Shown here: positions 1 to 45,097 of the stretch, piece by piece | Numbering within the stretch: the stretch's first letter is position 1 | How the letters are laid out: every line of letters starts with the position of its first letter | Assembly: GCA_027604705.1 (NCBI GenBank) | Contig: JADHYV010000017.1 | Coordinates: 1 to 64,000 of the forward strand | From: Allomyces arbusculus | Taxonomy: Eukaryota; Blastocladiomycota; Blastocladiomycetes; Blastocladiales; Blastocladiaceae | Length of the DNA stretch: 64,000 nucleotides | Reading direction: 5' to 3' | Notes under the pieces: model-generated | Told to the model about the DNA's origin: nothing | The model's input: the letters and a program-made list of their open reading frames with translations, nothing else | Databases searched by the model: none | Translations under genes and position numbers: made by a program

Positions 1-3000
1 GCGACAGTCATTGGCTTCCCGCTTATTTGTTGGGGCCGCTAATCAAGGTCAACCCGGTCTTGCTCGTCATTCCCCATCAACCCGTTTACCCCCCCCCCCC
101 CCCCCCCGCTAACGGCCAAAACAACACGTACCTCCGAGTGAATCTGCCGGTGCACATACACTAGGAAATCCACGTAGCTCATCGCCTCGTGGTTCTTATC
201 CTCGACCATGTGCGCCACAAACTCGAGTTCCGCCTGGTCGATTCCCTGCCGCACGACATGGAACGCCAAGTGCCGATGGTACCGGGCAAACACGCCCTGC
301 AGCACCTTCTGCACGCGCTGGTTGACCTCGTCATCGCGCGGCGGGAGGACGTGCAGTCGCGGATCCACCTGGTCGACCGACGCGACACCAAACACGCCCT
401 GCACAAAGTCCGACGACACGTTCCGCCCGAGCCACAAGTGCATCCCCTGTCCGTTCTCGACCAGGTAGCAACCCGTCGGATCGAGCCGCTCGTACGAGAC
501 GCGCACGGCCGTCGGTTCGGGCGTATGCAGTGCGACGAGCCGCGGGTAGAGCAGCGGGATACTGAGCGGGACGGGCAGCGACTTGAGTTCGCGCATGGCC
601 GCGACGCGCACGTCCGACGCGACATCACCGGCCTTGAGTGCCTTGTGCTTGTGCAGGCACAGCGTGAAGAGCGGGAACAGCTTGAACGTTTCCGGCAAAA
701 TGAGCTGGCCGGGGGACGTCGACGCGGCGCAGTTTTTCCGGTAACTGGCGAGGACCTTGACACAGGTCTCCGTCAGCTGCGTGCGCACCGTGTTGAGCGA
801 CGCTGAGAGCACCGTAGTCATGGCCGACTTGGCAAGGAAGTTGACGGTCGTATCAAGTTCGGCGAACCGGAAGACCGACCCAAGCAAAGTCGTATTGGTC
901 AGCGACGTGGTCAGGACACGAATGCGCCGGTGGCCCTCGGCCGTCGTGTACAGCAGGGCCACCTGAATCGCCGACTCGGCTTTTTCGTCCAATTTATCGT
1001 CGTGCTTGAGCGCGACCGCAAACGCCTTATCCGCGTCGATCCCAGCCAGCTCGAGATCGCCCGTGCCCTTGTCGAGGAAATTGCCGAAATGGTCGTGCAC
1101 GCGGAGACCCGACGACGCGCGCACGCGGACCATGGCATTGTACCCAAATTGCCGCGTCAGTGACCGCAGCACGTCGGTGTGCAGCCGCGCGCCGTCGCGC
1201 TCGAGATGGAACTGCGGGTAGAGCTTGCACTCTCCACCCGTGATCGCCGACAATTGGCCAAACGAGGCCACGTCCTGGTACCCGAAAGCGAAAAGGTACT
1301 GGTCAATGCACACGCCAGCACCGACGGATTTTTCGCCAAGCGACTTGTAAAAGGTATCTTGCGGCGCAAAGAGTTGCTTTTCCTTGTCGGTGCCGTAAAG
1401 CTTCGGGTCCTCGCGGTTCTTGAGCTGGCCAGGGCCAAAGTTGGGCAGCGCCGTGTGGAACAGCATCAGGCGGCCGCCGCGGTCGTTCTAGAAGTGAAAA
1501 ACGAGTAGTAGGTGAGTGAACGGGGCGCGTGGTCGTCTCCAGGCAATCAGGAAACGTACGAGGTACGACACGATTGACTCGGCCACAGCGCCAACTGCGC
1601 TCTCGGCCATACGATTCTCCTGGAAGAGAGTGGGCAATGCGTCGAGGAACTGCTCAATCACCGGCTGCGACTCGTATGGGTCGACCAAGAAGCCCGTCGA
1701 CAGCGGCACAAACATTTCGTCGACGTCCGGGACCACGAGCATCTGGAACTGCTCGAGTGCGGGCTATACAACACGCAAGACGCAAACGTCAGTTGCGCGG
1801 ATATCGACCAAGGCACCGATCGTCAACCCAAACGTACGTGGAAGTTGTAAAAATGCACGGCACGGTCGTAAGTCAAAATCGCGACCTGCGCGCCCTTGGG
1901 GAACCGCGCCTGCGCGTTCTCGGCATAGAGCCAGTCGCGGATGATGCGCGCCATTTGCGCGGGCAAGCCCGACTGCACGGCGTTCCACGACACGTCGATC
2001 GCCAGCACAACAGCCACGGGTTTCGGGTCCTTGGCAATGAACTCCTTGCCCGCCGCGTACTCGACGACACCGCACCGCAGTTCTGGACGCGCCATGATGT
2101 CGACGCGGCGGCCGTTCATGTCGAGGTTGCAGAAGTACTCGGCTGGCACTAGAGTGAGCAAGTGGGTCGTTAAATCCCCGCAACGACGCGCTTCAATCGA
2201 AAGAAGCCGTTGCGTACCGTCGTTCTGAATAAAGCAAAAGTTGCACATGAACTTGCGCCCGCCGTCGGAAAACTGCATAAACGCATTCATGTATGCGCGG
2301 CATCGGCGGCACCGCATCGGTCCATTCGGCCCGGGCTCGACCAACTCGATCGGCGCTTCACCCCCCTTCAACTCGGCCAGCGGCTGCACAATACACCCGA
2401 GCGGGATCATCGACTGCGCGAGCAAGTCCTCGGTGCACGGCACGTTATAAGTCGTCATGCGCAAAAACCGCGCCGAGACATTGCCCTCGTCGATGACACG
2501 AAACTCAGTCGAGGCCAGCGGCGGAATCGTCTTGGAACAGGTGCGGTACGGTTCGGTCGCGTACTGCGCCTGGTCGTTGTCCTGCACCGCCACGGGACTC
2601 GGGATCTGGTCCGGGTCGATTCGCGACCGCGACCCGCCCGACGGCGTCTGCGGGGTACCGGGCGCCGCGAGCGAGTTGGAACTGCCGCCGAGACCACCCA
2701 TCGACGGCTGCTGCGGGATCATGCTGGGCGCGGCGGGCGGCATCATCATCCCCGCCTGCCCCTGCGGCTGCGGTGGCTGCCCAGGTTGCCCAGAGAGCGA
2801 CATTTGGCTCATCCCCTGCGCGAGCTGGTTCGGCGACCCGTACGGCGCCGCGGCAGCGACACCGCCGGGACCGGGTGGCGCTGGAGCGGGCGGCTGGCCG
2901 GGGGACCCGGCGCCCGCGTAGGCGCGCGCCATTTGCTCCGGGTACATGCGCCGGCGCGTCGCGCTCGGCGGCGACGCAGGCGCCGGCGGCTGCCCCTGCT

Positions 3001-3575
3001 GTTGCGGCGGGACGCCGTTCGGTGCGTACTGCTGCGGCGCCTGCTGCTGCTGTTGCTGATGATGCTGTTGCTGGTACTGCTGCGGCTGCTGCTGCGGGTA
3101 ACCCTGCGGCGGGAACCCGGGCTGCCCAGGTTGCCCCGGCTGTTGCATGGGCGGGCGATAATGCTGCTGCTGCTGCTGTTGCTGGTACGGCATCGGCTGG
3201 CCTGGCTGACTCTGTTGCGGCATCATCCCCGGGCGCGGCTGCGACGGCGGCTGCTGCTGGCCGTACGCGGGTGGGCGCATCATGGGCGCGGGCGATCCCG
3301 ACGGCGCACCCTGCGGGTACGTTTGCGCGCGCGGCGCGCCGTAGCCCGGTGGCGGCGTGCCCTGCGGGCCCGGACCGCCTGGGAACGGCGGGCGGTAGGG
3401 CATCTGCGCGCCGGGTGGGGGCGTGGCTAGAAAAGCAGAGCAGGGCTCCCAGATCAGCACGCGGTTGTGTCGCAGATGCTGGAGCGTGTGCCGACGTGGA
3501 CGTACGCGCGGCGTTCTGCGCAGCCGGGTAGCCCGGCTGGCCCGGGATCGGTGGGCGGGCGGCGGCGGGGTGCAT
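1..3575 (-). CDS. SEC24: Sec24, COPII coat cargo-binding subunit (3' end off window)
   Basis: Cargo-selecting subunit of the COPII inner coat; pairs with Sec23 on ER exit membranes. Modelled exons, minus strand: 3575-3506, 3426-1838, 1763-1560, 1487-132, then probably 38 to the window edge. The start ATG at 3575 was chosen because splicing a 79-nt intron joins MHPAAARPPIPGQ to the Pro/Gln-rich tail in frame. After about 400 disordered Q/P residues come the Sec23/24 zinc finger (CRRC ... CNFC), the trunk (VVLAIDVSW; HFYNFH spliced to PALEQFQMLVV), the beta-sandwich/helical regions and the gelsolin domain ending MSYVDFLVYVHRQIH. All four donors are GTACGT. The last intron holds a 19-nt C run (G on the sense strand), and its acceptor TTGATTAG coincides with the stop that a read-through frame would meet at 39. 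About 1,072 residues are visible. Family assignment is secure; the extreme C-terminus is not. Confidence 0.95.
89..107. repeat. 19-nt C homopolymer inside the last visible SEC24 intron
   Basis: An uninterrupted run of C on the plus strand (G on the transcript strand). It lies inside the intron whose donor is at 131 and likely acceptor at 39. Confidence 0.9.
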
Positions 3576-27303: not shown

Positions 27304-30185
27304 TCAATTGGGTGCCGCGCACGCACCGGCCTCGCGCGTGCCCTCCATCATCATTCGCCCCTCACTCCTTGCGCGCCCCTCTTGCTCGCCCTGCTGGTCC
27401 ACCCTCACCGCATTCCCAGTACCCCCGACCGGACCACCGGCGGCGCCGTACCCAATTATCGCCTGCATGCACGCCCATTCGACCATCCGGCGCTCGAGCC
27501 ACTTCAAATTCACCGGTTTCTCCAGGTAATCGTCACACCCGGCCGCCAGCGCTGCGCGGCGATTTGCTGCCGCCGCGCCCGCCGACAGAGCGACAATCAC
27601 GGCGCGCGGCGGCCGTGCGGTTCCCGCAGCCGCACTCTCGACCGCGCGCATTTGTCGCGTCGCTTCGAGCCCGTCCATGCCGCCGGCCAGCTGCAAGTCC
27701 ATGAGGACCAACGGCGGTGCCCAGGCCGCGAACTGCGCAACGGCCTCGGCGCCCGTCGAGGCCGTGTAGTGCGCGACCCCACGCTGCCGTAAAAAAGTCG
27801 CCAGAATCCGCTGGTTGATGGCGTTGTCCTCGACAATCAAAACGCGCACGCGCGGGAGGACGCGCGCGGCCAGCGGGATGGCTGCGGTCGTCGCCGCGCG
27901 CCGTGGCGTCGCCGCCGCAGGTGCTGTTGGCTGCTTGTCGGGTGTGGGAAACGTGGGCGCCGCGCGCGTCGGCGCCGACCCACCCGACATTGGTAACGGC
28001 GGGAGCGGGACGGTGCGCCGCCGCATTGCGTGCGCTGGGGCCTTGGTGGTCGTCGCGGTGGTTGTCGGCACGCGGTCCAGGGTGCTCCCGCCGAGCGACG
28101 ACGTGGAGACGACTGAGTCCATGATGCTGCGGCGGTGGGAAAAGCCCGCTTCGCGACCGTGCGGCGTGCGCCGGGTCGCCGCGCCGCGGGCACTGCTGCC
28201 GGCGGCCTCAGTCCGTGGCGAGAGCCGCGCAGTGGCGCGGCCCAGCATGCTGGGCGACGTGATCGGGGTCGGCGTCTCGGCGGCACGATCGGTACTCTTG
28301 GTCCCACGAAGATCGAGGTCGGGGCGCGGCGGCGCAGTTGCGCACGGGGTCACAGCAGCATCTCCATCGCGTCTTGGCGGAGCGTCGGTCTTCCTTCGGT
28401 TGTCCTCGGCGTGCACCACTTCACACTCTGGCGGCGTCGCCAACCCGCCCATCCATGCGCGCCTGCCGGCCCCACACGCGCTGTCCCCTACCTCGGCGTG
28501 TAGTTGCGCGTAGAGGTCGTGCAGGTACGCGAGGAGCGCCGGGATGCATACGGGCGCCGCGGCCACTTGCACAATCATGGTTGACGCGACATCCAAGTCG
28601 AGCACGGCGCGGGCGACGGCCGTCATCGACGCATCGTCGGGCATTTGCACAAGCACGCCGATCCGGCGGCGCGGCGGCGCGACACCGGTAAGAATGCTAT
28701 GGAGCCGGTGCAGCGCTTTGACAACGGCCGGGCACGACAGGCCGTACGCGACGATCAGCGGCGGCAGCGCGTCGGCGGGATGTGCGAGGAGTGTGTCGTC
28801 GTTGTCGTCGCCGCCGCTGAGGACCTGGAACGGGATTGCACCCCACGCCGGAGACCACCATGGCAAGACGACGGGACCGTGCGGGGTCTCGTCGACGCGG
28901 TCGGCTGTCGGGTCGATCTTGGCGAGGACCGCGGCGGGCGCGACGAGGCCAATGACGAGCGGCGCGGCAGCGTTGGGGGCTGCCGCTGCGGTGTGCGGGC
29001 GCTTAATGGGCGTGCCGAGCAGCAAGTGCAGGCAGAAATGCTGGTAGGCCGATGACGGCTGTGAGTGCAAGTGCGCGTCTGCGGGGCCTTTGATGGTGGC
29101 GCTGGTGGTGGTGATCGTGGGCGAACGAGGGTCGCCCCGCGTGGTCGAGCCGGTGGTGGGCGGTGCGGGTTGTCGTGCCACGGCGCCGGGCGAAACCGGG
29201 TCCCGATCGGCGGCCTTCGCAACCCTGGTGATCGCCGGCAAGATCACGACCGCTTGCACACCGGCCGGCGCCTTTGCGCGCTTGCCACCATTGACACTCG
29301 GCACGACATAGACGGAGCACGTCCCGGCCAGTGCGCCGCGCATCGTCTCGGCCACGGCCGCGTGCCAGTGCAGCCCACCAGCGACGAGCGGCAGCGCGCA
29401 GACGAGGTCGACAACGAGTTTTGGGGCTTCGAGGTCGCACTCGAGCCGCGCGCCGACGCGCCCGCCGCTACCGACCGCGTCGACGGCCGTGCCGAGGGCT
29501 ACGAGCACGGCGCGCGAGACGTGCTGCGCGTGCGCACATACGTTGAAGAAGGGATCGCTACAGGCAAACTCGACGCGCACGCGCCTCGGTTCGGCGGCGC
29601 GCGCAATCTATATATAGAGCAGTGTGCCAGTCGCACCATCATGAGCCGTCCGCGGGCAGGAGGGACACTTTGCGCGATCCAAACGAAAGCGGAAGGAGCG
29701 CGTGAACGACGTACCGTGCCGAGCAAGCTGCATACGAGTGCCGGCAGATCAACTTTGGCGGGACCCGGACCGTGGCCGCTCGAGTGACCGGTGCTATCGC
29801 CGCCGCCGCCTTGGCCGCCGATGCGCGCCGCGGCCGTGATGGCCGTCGAGAGCGCCCACGCGAACCGGCTCGTGTCGGGGACCGTAGCGTCAACGGGTAG
29901 CAGCGCAGACCGCAGCGCGGCGGTGGCGAGCCTTACGCCCTCGAGAATTAGGTGCAGGTGCATGGAAACGGGGTTGGGGAGGGCCGCCGTGGGCCGATGC
30001 ACGGTGACTGTGGCCGCGTCACGACGAGTAGGGCGCGCTTCATGGCGACTGGCGACGACATGGCGGTCGGCGAGCAGCCAGGCCAAGCCGTGCGCCGCGG
30101 CCGAGTCGGAGTGAAGCAGCGCCAAGAGCGCGTGCGTGTGCGTCAGCGCGAGCGCGACGGCCACGTCGGACCGCACGTCGGTCAT
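27304..30185 (-). CDS. SSK1: Ssk1-type response regulator of the HOG osmostress phosphorelay
   Basis: Receives phosphate from an Ypd1-like transmitter; the unphosphorylated form activates the Ssk2/22 MAPKKK. Exons, minus: 30185-29715 and 29607-27304; 924 residues. The intron (107 nt, GTACGT donor, TATATAG acceptor) is phase 0. The receiver domain spans about 743-865: VLIVEDNAINQRILATFLRQ, phospho-acceptor Asp794 in LVLMDLQL, switch residues VALSAG and the conserved Lys in YLEKPVNLKWLERRMVEW. The signature EDNxINQ and the LKWLERRxxEW end are typical of Ssk1/Mcs4 rather than of Skn7 or hybrid kinases. The long N-terminal half has hydrophobic alpha/beta segments conserved in Ssk1 proteins and a Ser/Thr/Pro-rich linker. 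No DNA-binding domain is present. Confidence 0.9.
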
Positions 30186-31324: not shown

Positions 31325-34158
31325 TCACGACGACGACTCGTGCGGGGCCAGCGACGCCATCACCGCCGCCGCCGTCGCGGTCTGAGGGGGCGAGCCCGGC
31401 GGCTGCACCGACACCTTGGCCGTTGGCGCCGACACGACGACCGTCGCGCCCGTCGCCAGCACCTGCTCCCCGACAGCCAGGTCCGGCACGGGCTCCGCCT
31501 CGGGGCCGGGCCCCTTGATCCCGAGCTTGATGACGGCCTCGCGCAGGGCCTCAATAAACCGCTGCCGGCGCGCGGCACGTGCGGCCTGGTCCTGCCAGTT
31601 GCCCTTGTGCGGAACCGGCACAGCAAGCTCGAGCGCGTGGTCGGCGAGCTCGATCCCCTTGACGGCAATTGCAAACTTGACGGGCGGCAGGAAATCGCGC
31701 TTGTACTGCGCCATCCACATGCGCAGTTCATCCTCGAGGTCGGCAATCAGGGCCGCGGGGGTCGTGAGCGCGACTTGCAGCGTCACCGACTCGGCCATGG
31801 CGCCGGACATGCGCACGTTATCGATCGGTTTCGCAAAGAGCGTCTTGTTCGGGTAGTGCACGATGCGGCCGTCGGACCGCTGCATGACGGTCGTCTGGAT
31901 CGAAACCGACTTGACCAGGTACGACTCTTGGTCTATCACGACCCAGTCGCCGACCGTGTAGGCCTGGTAGAGCAAAATAAACACGAGCCCTTCAAACACG
32001 TCCTTGAGCGAGCTACCAAAAATAAACGAAAACGGCAGCAGCAGCGACACGGCCGACGTGAAGTCGAGTTTCAGGTTGAAGAGCGTGCCGACCACAAAAA
32101 CGATGAGCAGCAGCGCCATGATCGAAAACAGATTGTCGAGCGACCCGACCGCCGCGGCCGCGTCCTGCATCGAGTCCTCGAGATTCTGCTTCTCCTTCAT
32201 GAGCTCCGTCAAGATGGCCTTCATCTCAGTCTTGGACACGTCGCCGTTCCCGTCGCGGTCCCAAAGCCGGAAGGCGCGCCGCGCGTCGGCCTCCGAGTCG
32301 AAGAACGGGACAAAGTCGGCGAGCACCAACTCGGTCGCGCGCGGGGCCGCGAGAGCCGTGAACAAGTTCTTGGCGAGCAAATTGGCCTCGGACGGCGTGA
32401 GCGGGATCGCCGTCGCCGAGTGCAACGCCGTCGGGTCGAGCAACGTATTACCGATATTCGCGGCCACGGCACGAGCTTTCCGCGCAAACAGTTTGCGTGC
32501 GCGCGCAAGCCCCTTTTCCTTGAGCGTCTGTGCGCGGTGCATGCGGCGCGCGTCGTTGGGCGCGTGCACGCGCTGGTGCAGTGCCGCCGACAGCTTGCGC
32601 ACGACCGCGTCGGCAAACCGCATGCGCTTGATGCGCGTCGCAAATGCCGACTGCTGGAACCGCACGACCATGATCGCGACCACCAGCCGCTTGGCCGTCC
32701 AGACGGCCGACGTGGCGAGAATGCCGAGCAGCGCGCGTGACACGTAGTCCCACCAGATCCACGTCTTCTTGTCGTCGGGCGTGACGCCAATGTAGTCGAG
32801 GTACTCGTTCTTCCACTGCCATGAGACGACCTCGCTCGAAATCAGCAGGTTCCAGAGCACGTTCGACAGGAACGCCCACGCCGCGATGGTCAGGTTGCGG
32901 TGCAGAGCACGCACGTAGCCAATGTACCGCGCAAGCTTATCCTTGTAGTAGGAGCCGAGCGCGAGCAAAAGCGAGCTCTGCAGGAGCGTCGGGATGATGC
33001 CGAGCACGTAGAGTGTCGCCCAGTGCAGCGAGTACGAAATCATCAGGTAGCATGCCCACAGCAACAGCGGCATCCCGCCGATGTTGATGTTCGACGTCCA
33101 TTCGTGCACGGGGCGCGGGTCCGACAAGTACTTGGTCTTGGAGAAAATGAGATCCGGGAGCCCGAGCGCGGCAAAGATAATCGTGTCGCCAATCAGGGCG
33201 CTGATCTGTCACGGACCAAAAATTGCGGGCCAAAACCAGCGAATCAGTCAAACGCAACGCGACTGGGAATGCACGGTCTGCGGTGAAGACGTACCAAACA
33301 CTGCAGCGCAAACGGCAACCACGAGTAGAACGCGCCCAGGGCACCACAGCACTGCCGGCGCTTGCGCTTCGTGTCGGCGAGCGTGTCGGTGTCGTCGTCC
33401 TGCTCGACTTTGCCGCCATCAAGCTCCCAATCAAACTCGTCGGCGGGAAGCTCGGCCTCGACTACGGCATCGACGCGTTGCTGCGTGTTCAGATGATGAC
33501 CACCACCGTCCTCGTCGTCGGACGACGCGTCGTGCGCGGGCGCCAACTGCGACCGCCGATGCGACTGCACACTGAGCCGCGTCCGGCGCCGCCGCAATTC
33601 CACTTCGTCGACCAATTCGCGCGACGCGGCTGCAGATGCTGCGGGCGAGCGCCGAATTGGTGAACCGGCCGCTGCCGCATCCTGCGCGTCAAACAGCCGG
33701 TACGCCGTGTGCGGCGGGACCGCCGTGCTGGCGCCTGCAGTGCCCTTACCGCCAAAACTCGGCACCGGCGGCGGCATCGCGATCGTGTTCAGCGTCGTTT
33801 CCGAGGCCGTCGGGTGCAGAGACGGGTCTATCGCGCCCGGGTGTGCCGACAGGTACTGCGGCGGCGGGACCGGGTCCCACGGCGTCGCCGTGGCCGTGGC
33901 CGATGGGAGCGTCGGTGGTGCCGAAATGGGGGGAGCAGAAATGGCGCCTGGACGCGCGAGCGTCGCGCGCAGCTGGCGGAAATCAGCGGTCGGGTCGGGC
34001 TCGTCGTGGTCGTCGTAGCCGGGGAAGAGCGCCAGCGGGTGCGATTCGACGGGGCCCGAGGGCAGGACGGCGGCCGGGGTCGGGGTGGATGATTGGCCGG
34101 AGCGCGGGTCGGCGGTAGCGCCGCGCGGGCCGTAGTTGGCGGGGGGAGGCGACGGCAT
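31325..34158 (-). CDS. EF-hand MscS-family mechanosensitive ion channel
   Basis: Eukaryotic small-conductance mechanosensitive channel of the fungal Msy1/Msy2 type, which in fission yeast acts in ER membranes during hypo-osmotic shock. Exons, minus: 34158-33295 and 33205-31325; 914 residues. The N-terminus (to about 270) is disordered and basic. Splicing an 89-nt intron joins FALQCL to ISALIGDTIIFAALGLPDLI, reconstituting the first membrane segment. Further membrane segments follow, then a canonical EF-hand loop (DRDGNGDVSKTE) directly before the pore helix region, then the MscS beta domain (VGDWVVIDQESYLVKSVSIQ) and the cytoplasmic C-terminal domain. The EF-hand placed just before the pore is characteristic of fungal members and predicts calcium control. 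Confidence 0.93.
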
Positions 34159-36929: not shown

Positions 36930-39900
36930 ATGTCGACCTCGGACGGCCCCGACAAGGCAGTCAGATTTGCCTCGCTCCGTCGCGACGCTGTGAGTGGCGT
37001 GAGCCAGCATGGGTCCATGTTGGGACCCGCGGGCAGCAATAGTGGGTCGAGCGCGGCGAACCAGGCCTCAGCATCGTCGCTGTTTAGCGTCGAGGACGAC
37101 GACGTGCACGAGTCTGCCGAGTCGCTTGGTACGCTAAGAGCTCCCCCCCGCCCCTCTCTCTCCGCTCCTTTCCCTCCCCCAACCATGCCAATTGTTTTGA
37201 CGCGTTTGCTTGCTTGGCACTAGAAACCCGCTTCAAAACTCGCGCCGCTTACGTCTACCAGAAAAAGGCGACGCGCGCGTCCAACCACATTGTCTCGTTC
37301 ACGCGGCTCTTCATTCAAGTCGCTGCGGCGTCGGCCATCTTCCCCGTCACGGTCGAGTCGAGCCGCACCATCGAGTATCTTGCCGCGCTCATCGAGGCCG
37401 AGTATGCATTCCGGTACACGGCGATTGCCACGCACTTCAAGGATCCGCGGCCCGAAGGCGAGCGCGACAATGACGGCGTCGAGGCCAGATCGTCGGGCTT
37501 GGTCGTTGGGCTCGTGTGCGACGTCAATGGCAACGCGTTACAGTTCCACGACACGATTGCAGCCGTGCTCAACCTTGGCGACACGGTTGTCGTCACGCAC
37601 GCGCTCGACGGGTGGAACCCGCAGGCAGAGGGGCTGACGGTACCTCATTTGTTTTCTCCTCCAGGCTTTTGTTGCACTTGAGCTGACTGAGCCGGCCACG
37701 TCGATTTCAGAAAAACACGGCCACCGTTGAGTCCAAATTCGACCTATACGAGAACCCGACCGCAGCCGACACGCCGCAGCTCGACGGGTCCGCCGACAAC
37801 CGGTTCTTGGCCGTGTTGCGCAACTTGACGGGCCTCAACCTGTTCCGCGAGTACTGTGTCGCGCAGTGCAACCTCGAGTCGCTCTTGTTTTGGCTCGACG
37901 TGGAGATCTTTTCGGGCATGGCGCCCGAAGTGCGGTGGCTCATGGCCAAGTACATCTTCTACATGTACGTGGCCGACCAGGCGCCGCTCAAGGTGAACCT
38001 GGCGCAGGAAGTGCGCGCCGAAATGGAGCAAGTCGTGGAAGTCAAGCGCGACGTGCACTTGTTTGACGAGGCGCAGTTTCAAATCTACGGGTACCTGAAA
38101 AAGCAAGTCTATGCGTCGTTTGAACAGTCGGACCAGTTTCGCGAGTTTTTGCGGTTCCGGTCGTCGAGTACGCCGCTTTCTTGTTGATCTGAGAAGGGCT
38201 GAGCGAGTTGACTGACTTCCTGCTTCCCTTCCCTCTCAGGCCCGCAAGCCTACTTTTCGTCCAAGATCCGCGGCGACTTTGGCGAACACTTCAAGCCAGA
38301 CCTCGAGCTCATGCTCGAAGTGTGCGGGTCGGCCGCGATATCGACGCGCGGCGTGCCGTCGTTCATCAGGGACAAGTACCTGAACCGCGTCGTCAAGCGG
38401 TACTTCCCGTCGGCCGTCACGATCGAGGGGTACTGGGACAGTATTGGCAACTCGACCAACCAAGTGCGGCTGCGCAAGGTGCTCAAGGAAAAGAAGCTGT
38501 CCAAGTTCTTCGGCATCGACCGCAACTCGGACCGCGCGCAGCTCGCACAACACCTGCAGGGCCAGCCGGCCACGGGCAGTGGCGCGACCGCGTCGGTGCC
38601 CGGCAGCGCCTACGAACTCGAAGGGTCGCTCGACTCGGATGACCCGCGGTCCGATGCGCCGAGCGATGAGGGCGACTCGTCGAGTGATGACGGCAACTTG
38701 TTTGCGCGCAAGCGCCGTGCCGATAAGCTCACCGAGTTTTTCGGGAAGAAGGTGGATTTGATGGAGCTACAGCATACGACCACGACGTCGTCGTTGCCCG
38801 CACCAGATCCGGCCGCGCTCGCGGCGGCCGCGCAGCAGGCGCGCGTCGTGACGGTCAATGAACTGTCGTCCGAGGACAAGGCCATGCTCACGCGCCGGTC
38901 CAAGAAGCTGCGGCACGTGCTCGGCGAGACGCTTGACGAGAACACGGCGTACGAGAGGTGCGTCTGTTTTTTAACCGTTTCGCTTGTTGCGGAGTGGGAG
39001 ACCAGAAGAATACTGATTTGCCGCGACTCCAGCCTCTTACGCGAAATCTTCAACCCCGGCAACAACGACCGCCGCCGGACGTCGAGCAACATCACGGCCG
39101 CCGCGTACCGGGCACGCACGGCCCTGCTGGCATCCATGCCCGAGGCCGACCCGCTCGAGCAGGAGCTCGACCTGGCCGACAATGCGTCGGTGGCCTCGTC
39201 GGCATCGTCGGCGTCATCGTCGTCGCTTTCCGACGAGAATACGGCCGAGCCGAGCAAGCGTAAGCTCAAGACGATTCGGCGCCGCGGTAAGTTGCAGCAG
39301 GTGTTTGGCCAGGGCAACCTGCCGCCGGAACTCGTCAAGAGCATGCCCGCGGCCGGTGCAGCTGCTGCGGCAGGCGCCCCTGGTGGGCGTCCGCTCACCA
39401 AGGAAGACCGGCGCAAGAAGATTGCGCGCGCGACCAAGCTCGAAAAAGTGTTTGGCGAGTTGCCGCCGCCCGAGGCGCTTTCGGCGCTCCAGCGTAAGAC
39501 TATTCAGCACCGCCGGTCGATTGCGTCGCTGAGCCTGGTCCTGTCGGACGGCGAGGCTGTTGCGGGCCTGCTCGACTACCTCATGACGCAGGAAAAGCCC
39601 GCCGGCAGCGGTGGAGCGAGACCAGCTCTGGGCGGTTCTAGGTCGCACAGCACTGATGCTTCGGCGACTGGGGCGGCGCGGCTCGCACCCTCGTCGTCGG
39701 TGACGGCGCCGGGCAGTTGTAGTCCGTCGATCACGGGCGGTCTCCTGCTGCCGCCGTCGGCCCTGACGCCCACGTCCCTGGCCGATTCAGCGTCGAGCCG
39801 CACGTCGCTGCTCACGGCGAAATCAGACGACGACGATTCGCCGACCAAGGAGCGTAAGCTGCGCAAGCGCAAGTTCAAGAAGTTGCACAAGTTCTTTGGC

Positions 39901-40383
39901 GATAATGTCGACCCGGCGCTGCTCATTGAGCAGAACATCTTGGCCAAGCTCGAAAAGGAGATTGAGGAGGACATCGGCACCGACGAGTCGTCCATGTCGG
40001 TCTTGCGCGCCGACTTGGCCGTGCTCCGCGAACAGGTCAAGGTGATCACCGACCAGATGCGCGTCGCGGCGTCGCCGGGTGGCGGGAGCGTCCCTGACAC
40101 GCCCACCGATGACGCGTCGTCCTCGGCCAACGAGTCGGCGCCATCCACAACAACGCTCCTGCGGCGCAACGCGTCGACGGCGTCGCACGAGTCTGCGGCA
40201 CGCGCGCGCGTGACCGTCAAGCCGCGGTCAGTGTCAGCGCGCGAGCCCTCGGCTCAGGAGAGCGGATTGCAGCTCCTGGGCGGGTTTGCGTTTGAGTCGC
40301 ACCCGGCGATTTCGCTGTCGGAGGTGCAGGATAATGGGGGCGCGCCGGGGACCGGCACGGGCGCGCGGGCGCCGCACGTGTGA
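36930..40383 (+). CDS. RGS-domain protein with six internal KLxxxFG motifs
   Basis: Regulator of G-protein signalling: RGS domains speed GTP hydrolysis by G-alpha. Exons: 36930-37128, 37224-37639, 37711-38167, 38240-38957, 39033-40383; 1,046 residues. A conserved-looking N-terminal domain (about 67-205, ending VVVTHALDGWNPQ) precedes the RGS domain at about 235-410 (FLAVLRNLTGLNLFREYC, then SLLFWLDVE, then YASFEQSDQFREFLRF). The C-terminal half has a motif recurring six times: KKLSKFFG, DKLTEFFG, KKLRHVLG, GKLQQVFG, TKLEKVFG, KKLHKFFG, each preceded by basic residues and often followed by an acidic/Pro stretch. Intron 4 (75 nt) is stop-free and a multiple of three, so retention is possible. 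The gene converges on two tandem 7TM genes. Not a GoLoco protein, since the GoLoco QSxRxDDQR core is absent. Confidence 0.85.
38491..39915 (+). repeat. Region of six degenerate KLxxxFG protein motifs in the RGS gene
   Basis: Motif copies start near 38491, 38721, 38901, 39287, 39433 and 39871. Spacing is irregular (about 150-440 nt) and DNA identity between copies is low, so they are ancient protein-level repeats rather than a recent tandem array. Confidence 0.75.
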
Positions 40384-40646
40384 ACGGGCATGCGCGGTTG
40401 GTTGGTTGGAGAATGTGAGGGACTGGTCGCGAGCTTCGGAATTGGGGGGACTGGCGTTGGAGAGCGTTTGATGGCAACATGATGACTTATCGTGGCGCTG
40501 ACGTTCCTAGCAGATCACGGCGTCCCAACGTGAGCAGCACAGCACTCACGTCGACAGGGTATTCTTATTCACTCATTCATCGTCTGGGAAAAATACATGA
40601 TTCGCATCGCACAGCGTCGCCGCGCTGACAAGCTCGCTCCTACGCG

Positions 40647-42297
40647 TTACTGCAACCTGTTAGTCGCCGAAACGGGTTCCTGCGGCACCCACACTTGCTT
40701 GGCCGGTTCGGACGCAACCACGCTCGGAGAAAACACGCCCGGATGCACGCCGCCGCCGCCGCCCGGGAGTGATCCTCTGCCATGCACGGACGCGGCACCG
40801 TGCATCGACGTGGATCTTGTCGCCGACGACCCCGCACGCACTTCCGCGACGCGCGCTTTGAGCCGCATGTTAGCAAAGTAAGCCAGACCATTGATCCACC
40901 CCGATCCACCAGGAGCGAGCACGTAGAGCGCGCCCGTGATTGGTTCGACAACACCGCACGTGGCGAAAATGGCTGTGGCCCACCCGCCAATTGCCCCGGG
41001 CGTCGACGAGAGCATCGACGCGGCCAGCAGGTTTGACAGCGACTTGAGAATCAGCTGGTGTTCCGTCAAAACCGTATTTTGCGCAGCCGTCGCGGCCATG
41101 GCATTTTCGAGCGTCCGCACGTGCGGGTAGTCGGCGGGCCGTGCGGCACGGACGGATGCAAACATGCGCATCGCGCCTACGACTTCGCGCGCGATCATCG
41201 TGTACGAGTAGGACGAGGCCAAGGTGTTGAATGTCGACATGAACCCGCCAATGTAGGCGAGCATCACGCCGGTCGGTTTTTGCAAGTCGTGGCTGCAGCT
41301 GCATGGTGAAAGGAATGCATGCTGATTGAGAACGATGTTCGCGAGTATGATCGGTCACAAAAGTGGAAAGAACTATTATACGCACATGTACCCCGTTGGC
41401 CCCAAGCCTGATGTAACGATTTCAAACAGCCACAAGGCACCAAATGCAACGCCGACCGTCGAAAACAGTCGCCAATCGCCCGTGCCGAGCGGGATCGTAT
41501 AGTTGCGCACGACCTTGAAGTACGTGTAGAGCGCCAAGAACCCATACATGAGCTGTTGAACTCTGTTTCGCAAAAAATATCGGGTGGAGAAGCACATTGT
41601 CAGTCATCTTCACCCGTTACCGCTGGCAAACGCGGAGGGGTACGTACCCATAAGAGACGCAAAGCACCGACGCAAACGCAAGGCACTTGTCATGCTCGGG
41701 GAACCGGCCCGTTGTGAGCAGCAGCGCGTGCTCGAACGCGTGAGGCAGGGCAAACACAATCTCGCACACGGCAATGTAGACGGGGAATCGCGCCGCAAAG
41801 TCGCCGCGCATTAGCATGTGCGCCGTGTCCATGCACGATCGCCGCTTGGGACGCGTCGGGCAGGTGGCCACGGACGCGTCATGGCGAACCGAACCGGGCC
41901 CAACAGTGCCTGACCCGGAGGGGTAGTGCGGTTTGATGTCGGGGTTCGACCCGGTGCGGGCGCGGCCCAGCGACTGGTCCGAGAGCGCGTACGTGTCGAA
42001 GGGTGTCGGCGGCGGGGGAACGTCCGTGTCGGAGCACTTAAAGAAGCCAAAGCAGTGCGCAATAACGAGGATCGATGCGACCACCGACACACACGCGTTG
42101 AGCATACTGACCCAGTGGACCGTCACGAGCACCTCTGGGTAGTTCCCGATCCGGATGGGTCCGCCCATGTGGATCTGGGTCGTTGGGATGAACCAGGTCG
42201 TGTCGACTAGGGCGGGCAACGACTTGAAGAGTGGCGCGCCGGGCCCCGTGCCGTTACCGGGCGGCGGCGCAGCGGAGTCGACGACGAAGCCGGTCAT
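40647..42297 (-). CDS. Seven-transmembrane receptor-like protein, copy A
   Basis: Exons, minus: 42297-41648, 41562-41386, 41298-40647; 492 residues. Paralogue of the gene at 43397-45097: shared segments include the TTWFIPTTQIHMGGPI-type N-terminus, the first membrane segment (HWVSMLNACVSVVASILV), FPVYIAVCEIVFALPHAFEH, ALYTYFKVVRNYTIPLG and GVVEPITGALYVLAPG. Spliced, it has seven hydrophobic segments, a long loop between 1 and 2 and a charged loop before segment 6 (LTEHQLILKSL). Intron 2 lies at the same place and phase as the intron of copy B; intron 1 (85 nt, between SYG and VQQ) is unique to A. The fold suggests a GPCR-like receptor. I cannot assign it to a GPCR class, and a ligand or G-protein link is inference. 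Confidence 0.75.
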
Positions 42298-43396
42298 GGG
42301 TGCGCAGAACGTTGCAAACGGGTAAGAGTAGAAACAGCGACGACGACGAGCACGGAGCCGAGGTGCAACATGAAGCTGCGTTAGTGATCGGCGCGTGCGA
42401 AGTCGACGAGTACGCGGCCGATACGGTGAATGACGACGCTGTCGTCTGCCGTTTACTTGCGAGCAAAATACTTGGGGGAGAACACGCTCCAGACGGGTTT
42501 GGCAGCGCGACGGGGGATCTCTTGGGGTAATATATCGTGCACGCGCGCGCGCAAACTCGTTCTTCTGTCGCCGTTATCGCCCACCCTGTATAACGCGAGT
42601 CGAGGGGTGCAGCTCGTTGCAGTTGCTGTGGAACAGGTGCTCGGCTGAAAGTTTGGTATGGCGCGTCGCGGCAGCTTGCAGAGGCTCGGTACAGGTGGAG
42701 GACATCGCACTCTCGTGGCCAAAATCGACCCGACGCCGCCCAACATCGGGCGAGGGCCAGCAAGGGAAGTTGCAGAAGGAACGGGGCCTTTGGAGCGCAG
42801 GACGTGTGTGTGCGCGTGTGCAGGTGTGCGACATATGGTTTGTGTTGTGGTTGTGCGTGCAACGCCTTGTGCAACTGCGGCCTGCCAACGCCCCCGGAGA
42901 GCAAATGGGTCCGCGCGTGCGACTGGCAAGCCGCCCCCGGGGCGCAACGTCGCACAAAGGAAGCGCTTCTGGGGCGTCGTTTCAAGAATCGGCCGGGGAG
43001 ACGACGAATGTGATAATTTGGCAGGCAGGTGTCAACGACGATCTGTGAATGGTGATTTCGCGCTTTGATGACTGCTGATCCGCCCGACCTTCCAGCGCAC
43101 CAAGCAGCGCGCCCCTGCCTGGTGATCCGCCCCGGGTCGTGGTTGGCACCCTTGGCGATTAGCTGGCGTCGTCAGCAGTGTGATGGCGAGCAAGCGCGTC
43201 GCGACGACCTGCTGATCGTTCGGAAATGTATGAACACCTGACCGCGTCGCGCCCACCAAGCCGGCCCCAGCGGCCCACAGTCGCGTGTTACGCACTCTGT
43301 GCCTGTTAATGACGCTGTCTGACCGTTCATGTACGACCCTCGCGCGAGCCCCACCCCCGCACGCGTAGGGTCGTTTATGTCAACGCACAGCGCACT
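42298..43396. other. Intergenic between the two 7TM paralogues
   Basis: 1,099 bp upstream of copy A and downstream of copy B. It has an alternating CG run near 42541-42551 and several short frames with no family resemblance. No repeat matching the genes themselves was noticed. Confidence 0.5.
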
Positions 43397-45097
43397 CTAA
43401 TACAATTCATTTGTCGCCAAGATCGGCAGATCCGCCGGCGACGGCGGCGGTCGGCCTGGCCCCACGACACTCGCACTTGGGGCCGGCTTGGTTAGCGATC
43501 CCTGCGCGACAGCGAGCGCGGCCGCGGCTTGGCCCGCAGCGCTCAACGATGCCGACCCGTGCATGCCTGGTCCGGCGGCAATGATCGCGGGCAACTCGGC
43601 GGAACTCGATGCGCGAATTCGCGCTCGCGCAGCTGCAGATTTTATCCGAGCGGTCGCGAAATAGGCCCACATATTGCACCACCCACTGGCGCCCGGCGCG
43701 AGCACGTAGACGAGGCCCGAGATCGGTTCGACAACCCCAAGCGTCGCGAAAATGGCCGAGAGCCAGGCGCCGAGCGCGAGCGGCGTCGAGCATGCAATCG
43801 ACGAGTAGAGCAAGTACGAGAGCGACCGTAGGATCAGCTGGTGCTCGGTGAGCCGCGGGCGTCGTGATCGTCGGCGGCGGTAGAGTCCCGGTAATGGAGG
43901 CACGACAACGTTGGACGAGGTGGATGCCGACTCACTTGTCGTCGACGGCGTGTCGTGCGCGTGCGTAGGCGACCGCATCGGCGACCGCATCACGGACTGT
44001 AGCTGTACCATGGTCCCGCGCACCTCGGTCGCGATTTTCGTGTAGCTGTAGTAGCCACTCATGGCGTTGAAAGTGGCCGAGAGCGCGCCAACGTACGCGA
44101 GCAGGATGCCCGACGGTGCGTGAATGTTGAACGTGCACCTGGTAAGCGATGCAAATGAGATCAGACCGATGGGAACCAGCCAGCAAATTGTTTGCAAACG
44201 ACGTCGAGCACGCCGCCCATGCACGTACGTGAACCCACTTGGCCCCAGTCCGTCTGTCAAATGCAGAACCACGCCGAGCACCGCAAACGCGAACGCAATG
44301 GGAATGTGCAAATAGCAATCCATGGGCCCGAGCGGCAAGTGCACGCCGCGCACGACCTTGAGGTATGTAAACAAGCTCAAGAAGCCGGCGTAGTATTGCT
44401 GAAACCCGAATGCGATGCCGACGACCGTGGAAATGGCGACGCAGTCTGGCGCGCTCGGAAACCGGCCCGTGGTGAGCAAGACGGCGTGGTCAAACGCATG
44501 CACGGCCGCAAAAACAAGCTCGACGACGGCGATATAAATCGGGAACCGCGCCGAAAAATCGCTCTTCATCAGCGTTGTGATCAGTTCGCGCCAGGTCATG
44601 TCGCGTCGTGCTCGTGCCCTGGGCGACTGCGGCTGGGTATCCATGGATGACGGCGCTGGTGCGACCTCACCACCTCCCGTGGTCGATGGCACGCTTGGAT
44701 GCATGGCGCGCAGCTCGTACACGGCCGCTGTGATATCCTTGGACGCGGCTCGTGTCTGCCTCGGTGGCAGAGGCGATAGCGGCGGGTCGGAACATGGCAC
44801 CGATGATGGCGCGCTTGCTGGGGCGGTGGATGATGGTCGTGGGCATGGGTACTCGAAGAAACCGACACAGTGCGCGAGAACGAGCAGCGAGGCCAGGACC
44901 GAGACGATGGCGTTGAGCATGCTGATCCAGTGCAGCGCGCGAAAGAGGCCCGGGCGCGTGCCAAGAAATATGGGTCCGCCGAAATGAACGTCGGTCGCGG
45001 GAATGAACCATGATGTCGCGACGAGTGCCGGCACTGGTGGGAACTGGGCAGGCGGGGGTACTGGCGCATTGCGAGGGGCGCCGTGCTCTGCTAGCAT
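43397..45097 (-). CDS. Seven-transmembrane receptor-like protein, copy B
   Basis: Exons, minus: 45097-44229 and 44138-43397; 536 residues. Start ATG at 45097 gives MLAEHGAPRN and aligns with copy A just downstream (ALVATSWFIPATDVHFGGPI). Hydrophobic segments lie near residues 52-78, 184-208, 217-249, 259-282, 303-327, 396-420 and 421-440, seven in all. The intron (90 nt, GTACGT donor, GGTCTGATC branch region, TTACCAG acceptor) joins GPSGFT to CTFNIHAPSGILL, aligned residue for residue with GPTGYI-CSHDLQKPTGVML of copy A. The intron is stop-free and a multiple of three, so the frame stays open if unspliced. The loop before segment 6 is long and rich in Ser/Thr/Arg, a plausible regulatory or coupling loop. 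Confidence 0.75.
   Translation of the reverse strand: MLAEHGAPRNAPVPPPAQFPPVPALVATSWFIPATDVHFGGPIFLGTRPGLFRALHWISMLNAIVSVLASLLVLAHCVGFFEYPCPRPSSTAPASAPSSVPCSDPPLSPLPPRQTRAASKDITAAVYELRAMHPSVPSTTGGGEVAPAPSSMDTQPQSPRARARRDMTWRELITTLMKSDFSARFPIYIAVVELVFAAVHAFDHAVLLTTGRFPSAPDCVAISTVVGIAFGFQQYYAGFLSLFTYLKVVRGVHLPLGPMDCYLHIPIAFAFAVLGVVLHLTDGLGPSGFTYVHGRRARRRLQTICWLVPIGLISFASLTRCTFNIHAPSGILLAYVGALSATFNAMSGYYSYTKIATEVRGTMVQLQSVMRSPMRSPTHAHDTPSTTSESASTSSNVVVPPLPGLYRRRRSRRPRLTEHQLILRSLSYLLYSSIACSTPLALGAWLSAIFATLGVVEPISGLVYVLAPGASGWCNMWAYFATARIKSAAARARIRASSSAELPAIIAAGPGMHGSASLSAAGQAAAALAVAQGSLTKPAPSASVVGPGRPPPSPADLPILATNELY

Follow-up and report, generated by a model that had tools for sequence, protein, structure and literature searches.

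Two putative divergent CAR-like receptor genes beside a convergent RGS-domain gene in Allomyces arbusculus

At the start of contig C17 (JADHYV010000017.1) of the fungus Allomyces arbusculus, within a stretch of 64,000 nucleotides hereafter called the window, a plus-strand gene for a protein with an RGS domain converges on two paralogous minus-strand genes for seven-transmembrane (7TM) proteins, 7TM-A and 7TM-B. We consider it likely that these two are divergent receptors of the cAMP-receptor-like (CAR) type, that their RGS neighbor is an adaptor rather than their GTPase-activating protein (GAP), and that the three genes lie together by chance. An earlier note, made from the letters alone, had proposed a functional G-protein cluster here. 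All three genes and the RGS domain were recovered where that note had placed them, and the receptor-like nature of the 7TM proteins gained support from topology, cysteines and a CAR-like order of helices, short of proof; the cluster itself was not supported. The genome searched comprises 25.9 Mb in 197 contigs. The features discussed are as follows.

40647..42297, minus strand: 7TM-A, 492 residues, putative divergent CAR-like receptor (spliced frame, family alignment, topology)
43397..45097, minus strand: 7TM-B, 536 residues, putative divergent CAR-like receptor (spliced frame; seven segments when scanned singly for hydropathy)
36930..40383, plus strand: RGS-domain gene, 1046 residues (spliced open frame; Pfam RGS match)
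37804..38148, plus strand: RGS domain, residues 237-351 (Pfam PF00615 match to the spliced protein, also seen in the genome scan; PDB RGS chains)
38494..39900, plus strand: six copies of KLxx[F/V][F/L]G in the C-terminal tail of the RGS protein (shuffle test)

The 7TM genes and their family

The splicing of 7TM-A and 7TM-B was set from their mutual alignment together with GT-AG borders. 7TM-A has three exons (41648-42297, 41386-41562 and 40647-41298) separated by two GT-AG introns, and 7TM-B has two (44229-45097 and 43397-44138) separated by one. The 7TM-B intron (44139-44228) spans 90 bases, in frame and free of stop codons, and retaining it would insert 30 residues into the loop between transmembrane helices 4 and 5 (TM4-TM5 loop). 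We took this stretch as an intron because A and two further paralogues, C and D, lose frame at the same place, as judged by eye. Each of the seven exons examined has its highest G+C content at codon position 3, which is typical of coding sequence here.

The family comprises at least four genes, a lower bound with only the best candidates scored: A and B in the window, and C and D in tandem on the minus strand of contig C20 (355.7-358.8 kb). A genome search with part of B gave 9 matches and one with the greater part of C (E ≤ 1) gave 14, all within these four genes. Overall identity between A and B is 45%, rising to 56.8% in the helices and core; the other core identities are 55.2% (B-C), 53.5% (B-D), 48.5% (A-C), 50.2% (A-D) and 73.4% (C-D). 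Relatives were also sought in two collections, viral_contigs (45 pattern-matching stretches) and genome_contigs (55), and none was confirmed; these hold viruses and prokaryotes and have no bearing on how widely the family is spread among fungi.

Averaged across the four paralogues (426 columns), the hydropathy profile has exactly seven peaks of at least 1.0. When the proteins were scanned one by one with a cut-off of 1.1, seven segments appeared in B, five in A, eight in C and five in D, whose row is incomplete; since these counts range from 5 to 8, the number of seven helices rests on the alignment. With helices set by eye and the N terminus placed outside, lysine and arginine make up 99 of 871 residues in the inside loops vs 17 of 351 outside, and 47 of 360 vs 11 of 184 near the membrane, a charge pattern that fits this orientation. 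The hydropathy peaks and this positive-inside pattern thus predict the seven helices and outside N terminus of a G-protein-coupled receptor (GPCR). Two cysteines (C219 and C291 of B) are invariant in all four paralogues, one where TM3 begins and the other between TM4 and TM5, a placement as in GPCRs. Inside loops 1 and 3 are predicted to be long, the N-terminal part contains a conserved W-x-I, and TM7 ends in G-W-x-N-x-x-x-Y-F.

Resemblance to the CAR receptors

The earlier note could not assign the 7TM genes to a named GPCR class, and no Pfam family matched any member at E ≤ 1. The CAR model PF05462 matched none of the four, and in the genome scan it matched only on contigs C164 and C21. A search for Git3 receptors also found no match, but it likewise matched nothing in the control genomes and so says nothing either way.

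We then turned to a permutation test, in which each helix of the family was compared with each helix of 7TM proteins from the same genome (one to four sequences per set) and the natural order of the helices was ranked among 5040, using two seeds. The family ranked 28 and 26 against the CAR-like proteins. No same-order similarity was seen with class A (1341 and 1413), class C (4252 and 4230) or Frizzled (1278 and 1053), nor with the one PAQR protein tested, a 7TM protein that is not a GPCR (4163 and 4246). Among the GPCR controls, CAR ranked 13 and 17 with Frizzled, 196 and 192 with class A, and 281 and 385 with class C, while the remaining PAQR pairs ranked from 2443 to 3545. The family-CAR rank is thus similar in magnitude to those of CAR with Frizzled and with class A. 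The test gives moderate support for CAR as the nearest class, only moderate because helix borders were drawn by eye, the sets are small and some pairs of GPCRs fail to stand out. As it places the family nearest to CAR, we call its members divergent CAR-like receptors; judged from sequence, A and B probably belong to a small family of such receptors (fungal class 5).

In common with the CAR-like GPCRs (PF05462, Dicty_CAR; fungal class 5), the family has seven helices, a predicted outside N terminus and a cysteine where TM3 begins. By eye, the two CAR-like genes of this genome also end TM7 in G-x-x-N-x-x-x-Y-F, as the family does, and helix-for-helix similarity is greatest in TM1, 3, 5 and 7. 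The family differs from CAR in escaping the CAR model, in the length of its first inside loop (35 to 104 residues) and in its N-terminal W-x-I.

Several results weigh against this assignment. Even at E ≤ 10, Pfam returned no GPCR model for the family, the sole match being a photosystem model (E 8.3) in one member, and a PDB search with the four-member profile at the same threshold returned no chain. Profile comparison with hhalign gave nothing significant and did not favor CAR, which scored 15.9 against 27.5 for class A, with 27.2 for a reversed copy of the family itself. The method likewise failed to link CAR to class A and hence had no power here. The permutation test covers five family comparisons, with helix borders by eye and limited power, and the pair of class A and Frizzled, although related too, came no higher than 986 and 645 in it. 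In a first version with cruder shuffles, the family-CAR rank was weaker, at 97 of 5040; the other ranks were 718 for the family with class A, 4095 for the family with class C, 81 for CAR with class A, 764 for CAR with class C and 1592 for class A with class C.

The RGS protein and its repeated motif

The RGS gene has five exons (36930-37128, 37224-37639, 37711-38167, 38240-38957 and 39033-40383), and splicing of its four introns, all GT-AG, yields a single open protein. The spliced protein matches PF00615 with an E value of 5.3e-18 and 66 bits, against a cut-off of 23.9. In the PDB, the domain found 34 distinct sequences at E ≤ 0.001, with the best RGS chain at 1.2e-10. The N-terminal region had zero matches in Pfam or PDB. 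An impression by eye that it is ubiquitin-like was dropped as unsupported by either, and a literature search on RGS domains with ubiquitin-like parts found nothing.

To judge the G-alpha contact face, we used eight residues in RGS4 numbering, mapped onto RGS17, which we take to be the contacts, a literature search having given no confirmation. RGS17 and CG5036 retain all eight, and the window domain retains one (E87); its seven substituted positions include those we presume to be N88, N128, D163 and R167. With only one of the eight presumed contacts kept, a canonical GAP role is doubtful on sequence grounds: the RGS fold would be retained and the usual contact face not. Compared with proteins of the R4/RZ type such as RGS17, the RGS domain is alike by sequence, whereas the window protein has the single contact residue, a long tail with six motifs and an N-terminal region that matches nothing. 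One observation cuts the other way. The other 10 RGS matches of the genome, several of them partial exons, also keep few contacts (five of eight in two, 0 to 3 in the remaining eight); contact loss may therefore be general among RGS matches here and need not mean that GAP activity is gone.

The six motifs of the tail start at 38494, 38725, 38905, 39289, 39436 and 39880. In 20000 shuffles of the tail, the mean was 0.002 and the maximum 1. At the DNA level, the strict KLxxFFG pattern has three matches in the window, compared with none in 100 window shuffles, and 22 in the whole genome, compared with nine for a control pattern read backwards. We inspected all 22 sites. Ten lie in assignable frames, three of them in the window RGS gene. 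One each on contigs C104, C15 and C7 adjoins a RasGEF N-terminal domain, backed by Pfam on C104 and C15 and read by eye on C7. Two are in RGS-like proteins, on C33 (RGS from the genome scan) and on C8 (by eye). On C28 the motif follows or precedes two domains that flank it, a Pfam-supported Ras-binding domain of Byr2 type and a kinase domain; the kinase match (E 1.2e-5) falls short of the Pfam cut-off, the domain being cut by the fetched stretch. On C2 it precedes a Pfam-supported PH domain, and a second C2 copy lies in a neighboring frame without a Pfam match. The remaining 11 sites are mostly in short frames, two being in frames of 172 and 180 residues. A literature search for the motif letters turned up nothing related, judged from listings.

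Through these six motifs, the RGS protein would more likely serve as an adaptor than as the GAP of the A and B receptors. A bolder proposal, which we regard as speculative and rather improbable, is that KLxxFFG is a docking motif common to RasGEF-type, RGS-like, Byr2-like kinase and PH-domain proteins of this fungus. With its six copies and decayed G-alpha face, the window RGS protein would then be a multivalent scaffold gathering Ras-MAPK components in an undescribed signalling code, and the adjoining 7TM genes a CAR-derived fungal receptor class missed by family models.

The gene neighborhood and competing explanations

The ends of the RGS gene and 7TM-A are separated by 263 bases. Eight open frames lie in or reach into the spaces among the three genes, and as none of them matched a Pfam family, no gene of another kind is seen between them, in line with the earlier note. 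Elsewhere in the window, also on the minus strand, an open frame at 27307-29607 contains a response-regulator receiver domain (E 4.8e-17), and another at 31328-33208 contains a mechanosensitive-channel domain (E 3.7e-11) and an EF-hand.

We next asked how often such a neighborhood would arise by chance. The genome has at least 11 RGS matches, a lower bound because another RGS-like protein surfaced on C8, more than 200 kb from that contig's class C matches. GPCR-like loci number 68, namely 59 of class C, two of class A, two CAR-like, one Frizzled-like and the four family members. The class C loci were merged from 88 exon-level matches, five of them below the Pfam cut-off; several are clustered on C50, C74, C88 and C98. 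The Frizzled-like receptor (C56:13724-14344) was found with the 7tm_2 model, and its cysteine-rich N-terminal part looks Frizzled-type by eye. This receptor content fits a fungus like Allomyces macrogynus, for which PMC3251606 reports 78 glutamate-type receptors. When 11 RGS genes were placed at random relative to the 68 loci, the probability of at least one RGS-GPCR neighborhood was 0.103 within 300 bases, 0.140 within 1 kb, 0.199 within 3 kb and 0.275 within 5 kb. Convergent genes, moreover, share no promoter. Because of this chance probability and the convergent orientation, the adjacency by itself carries little weight.

None of the other 10 RGS matches is closer than 12 kb to a GPCR-like locus, the nearest being at 12.2 kb; four are on contigs without a listed locus of this kind, and six share a contig with one. 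For the second tandem pair, C and D, the sole RGS match on C20 is at 14.8 kb, about 340 kb away. C20 ends 4 kb beyond gene C, so the upstream side of the pair is beyond the contig. Downstream on the same strand, the next recognized gene is a class A GPCR (C20:353246-354853, minus; Pfam 7tm_1, E 7.6e-24). A literature search for GPCR-RGS gene clusters gave nothing related, judged from listings. PMC12842992 describes proteins in which a 7TM part is joined to an RGS domain, whereas here the two are separate convergent genes.

We consider it very unlikely that the three genes work as a cluster, with the RGS protein switching off the G-alpha through which both receptors act. The short distance between the gene ends favors this view, as does the presence of G-alpha genes at about a dozen genomic locations (37 exon-level matches, grouped by eye). 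It is opposed by the convergent orientation, the single contact residue retained, the lack of an RGS match near the C/D pair over up to about 340 kb, the isolation of the other 10 RGS matches, and chance probabilities of 0.10-0.20 for gaps from up to 300 bases to 3 kb. We give more room, at less than even probability, to an RGS domain that is active as a GAP by way of a shifted fungal contact surface and has nothing to do with the neighboring genes. The domain has the top RGS score of the genome (71.1 bits), and the other RGS matches also vary at the contacts; the substitution of seven of the eight contact residues argues against it.

The 7TM proteins might instead belong to another seven-helix family with the N terminus outside, enzyme-like or transporter-like and named in no library. 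The failure to match any library or PDB entry agrees with this, as does the presence of several fully conserved histidines and acidic residues within or beside the helices. Yet the cysteine pair, the loop pattern and the helix order resemble CAR receptors, and the single PAQR protein tested shows no resemblance, which leaves this explanation rather unlikely. We favor the reading in which A and B are divergent CAR-like receptors that probably sense a ligand at the cell surface and would act through one of many G-alpha proteins, and in which chance, in a genome rich in GPCRs, is the best account of the neighborhood.

The cluster proposed at first falls within chance and would be of no consequence. 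If functional, the KLxxFFG motif would connect RGS, RasGEF and MAPKKK proteins by a short sequence open to testing. Should A and B prove to be receptors, a kind of fungal GPCR escapes current family models, and fungal receptor counts based on those models are too low.

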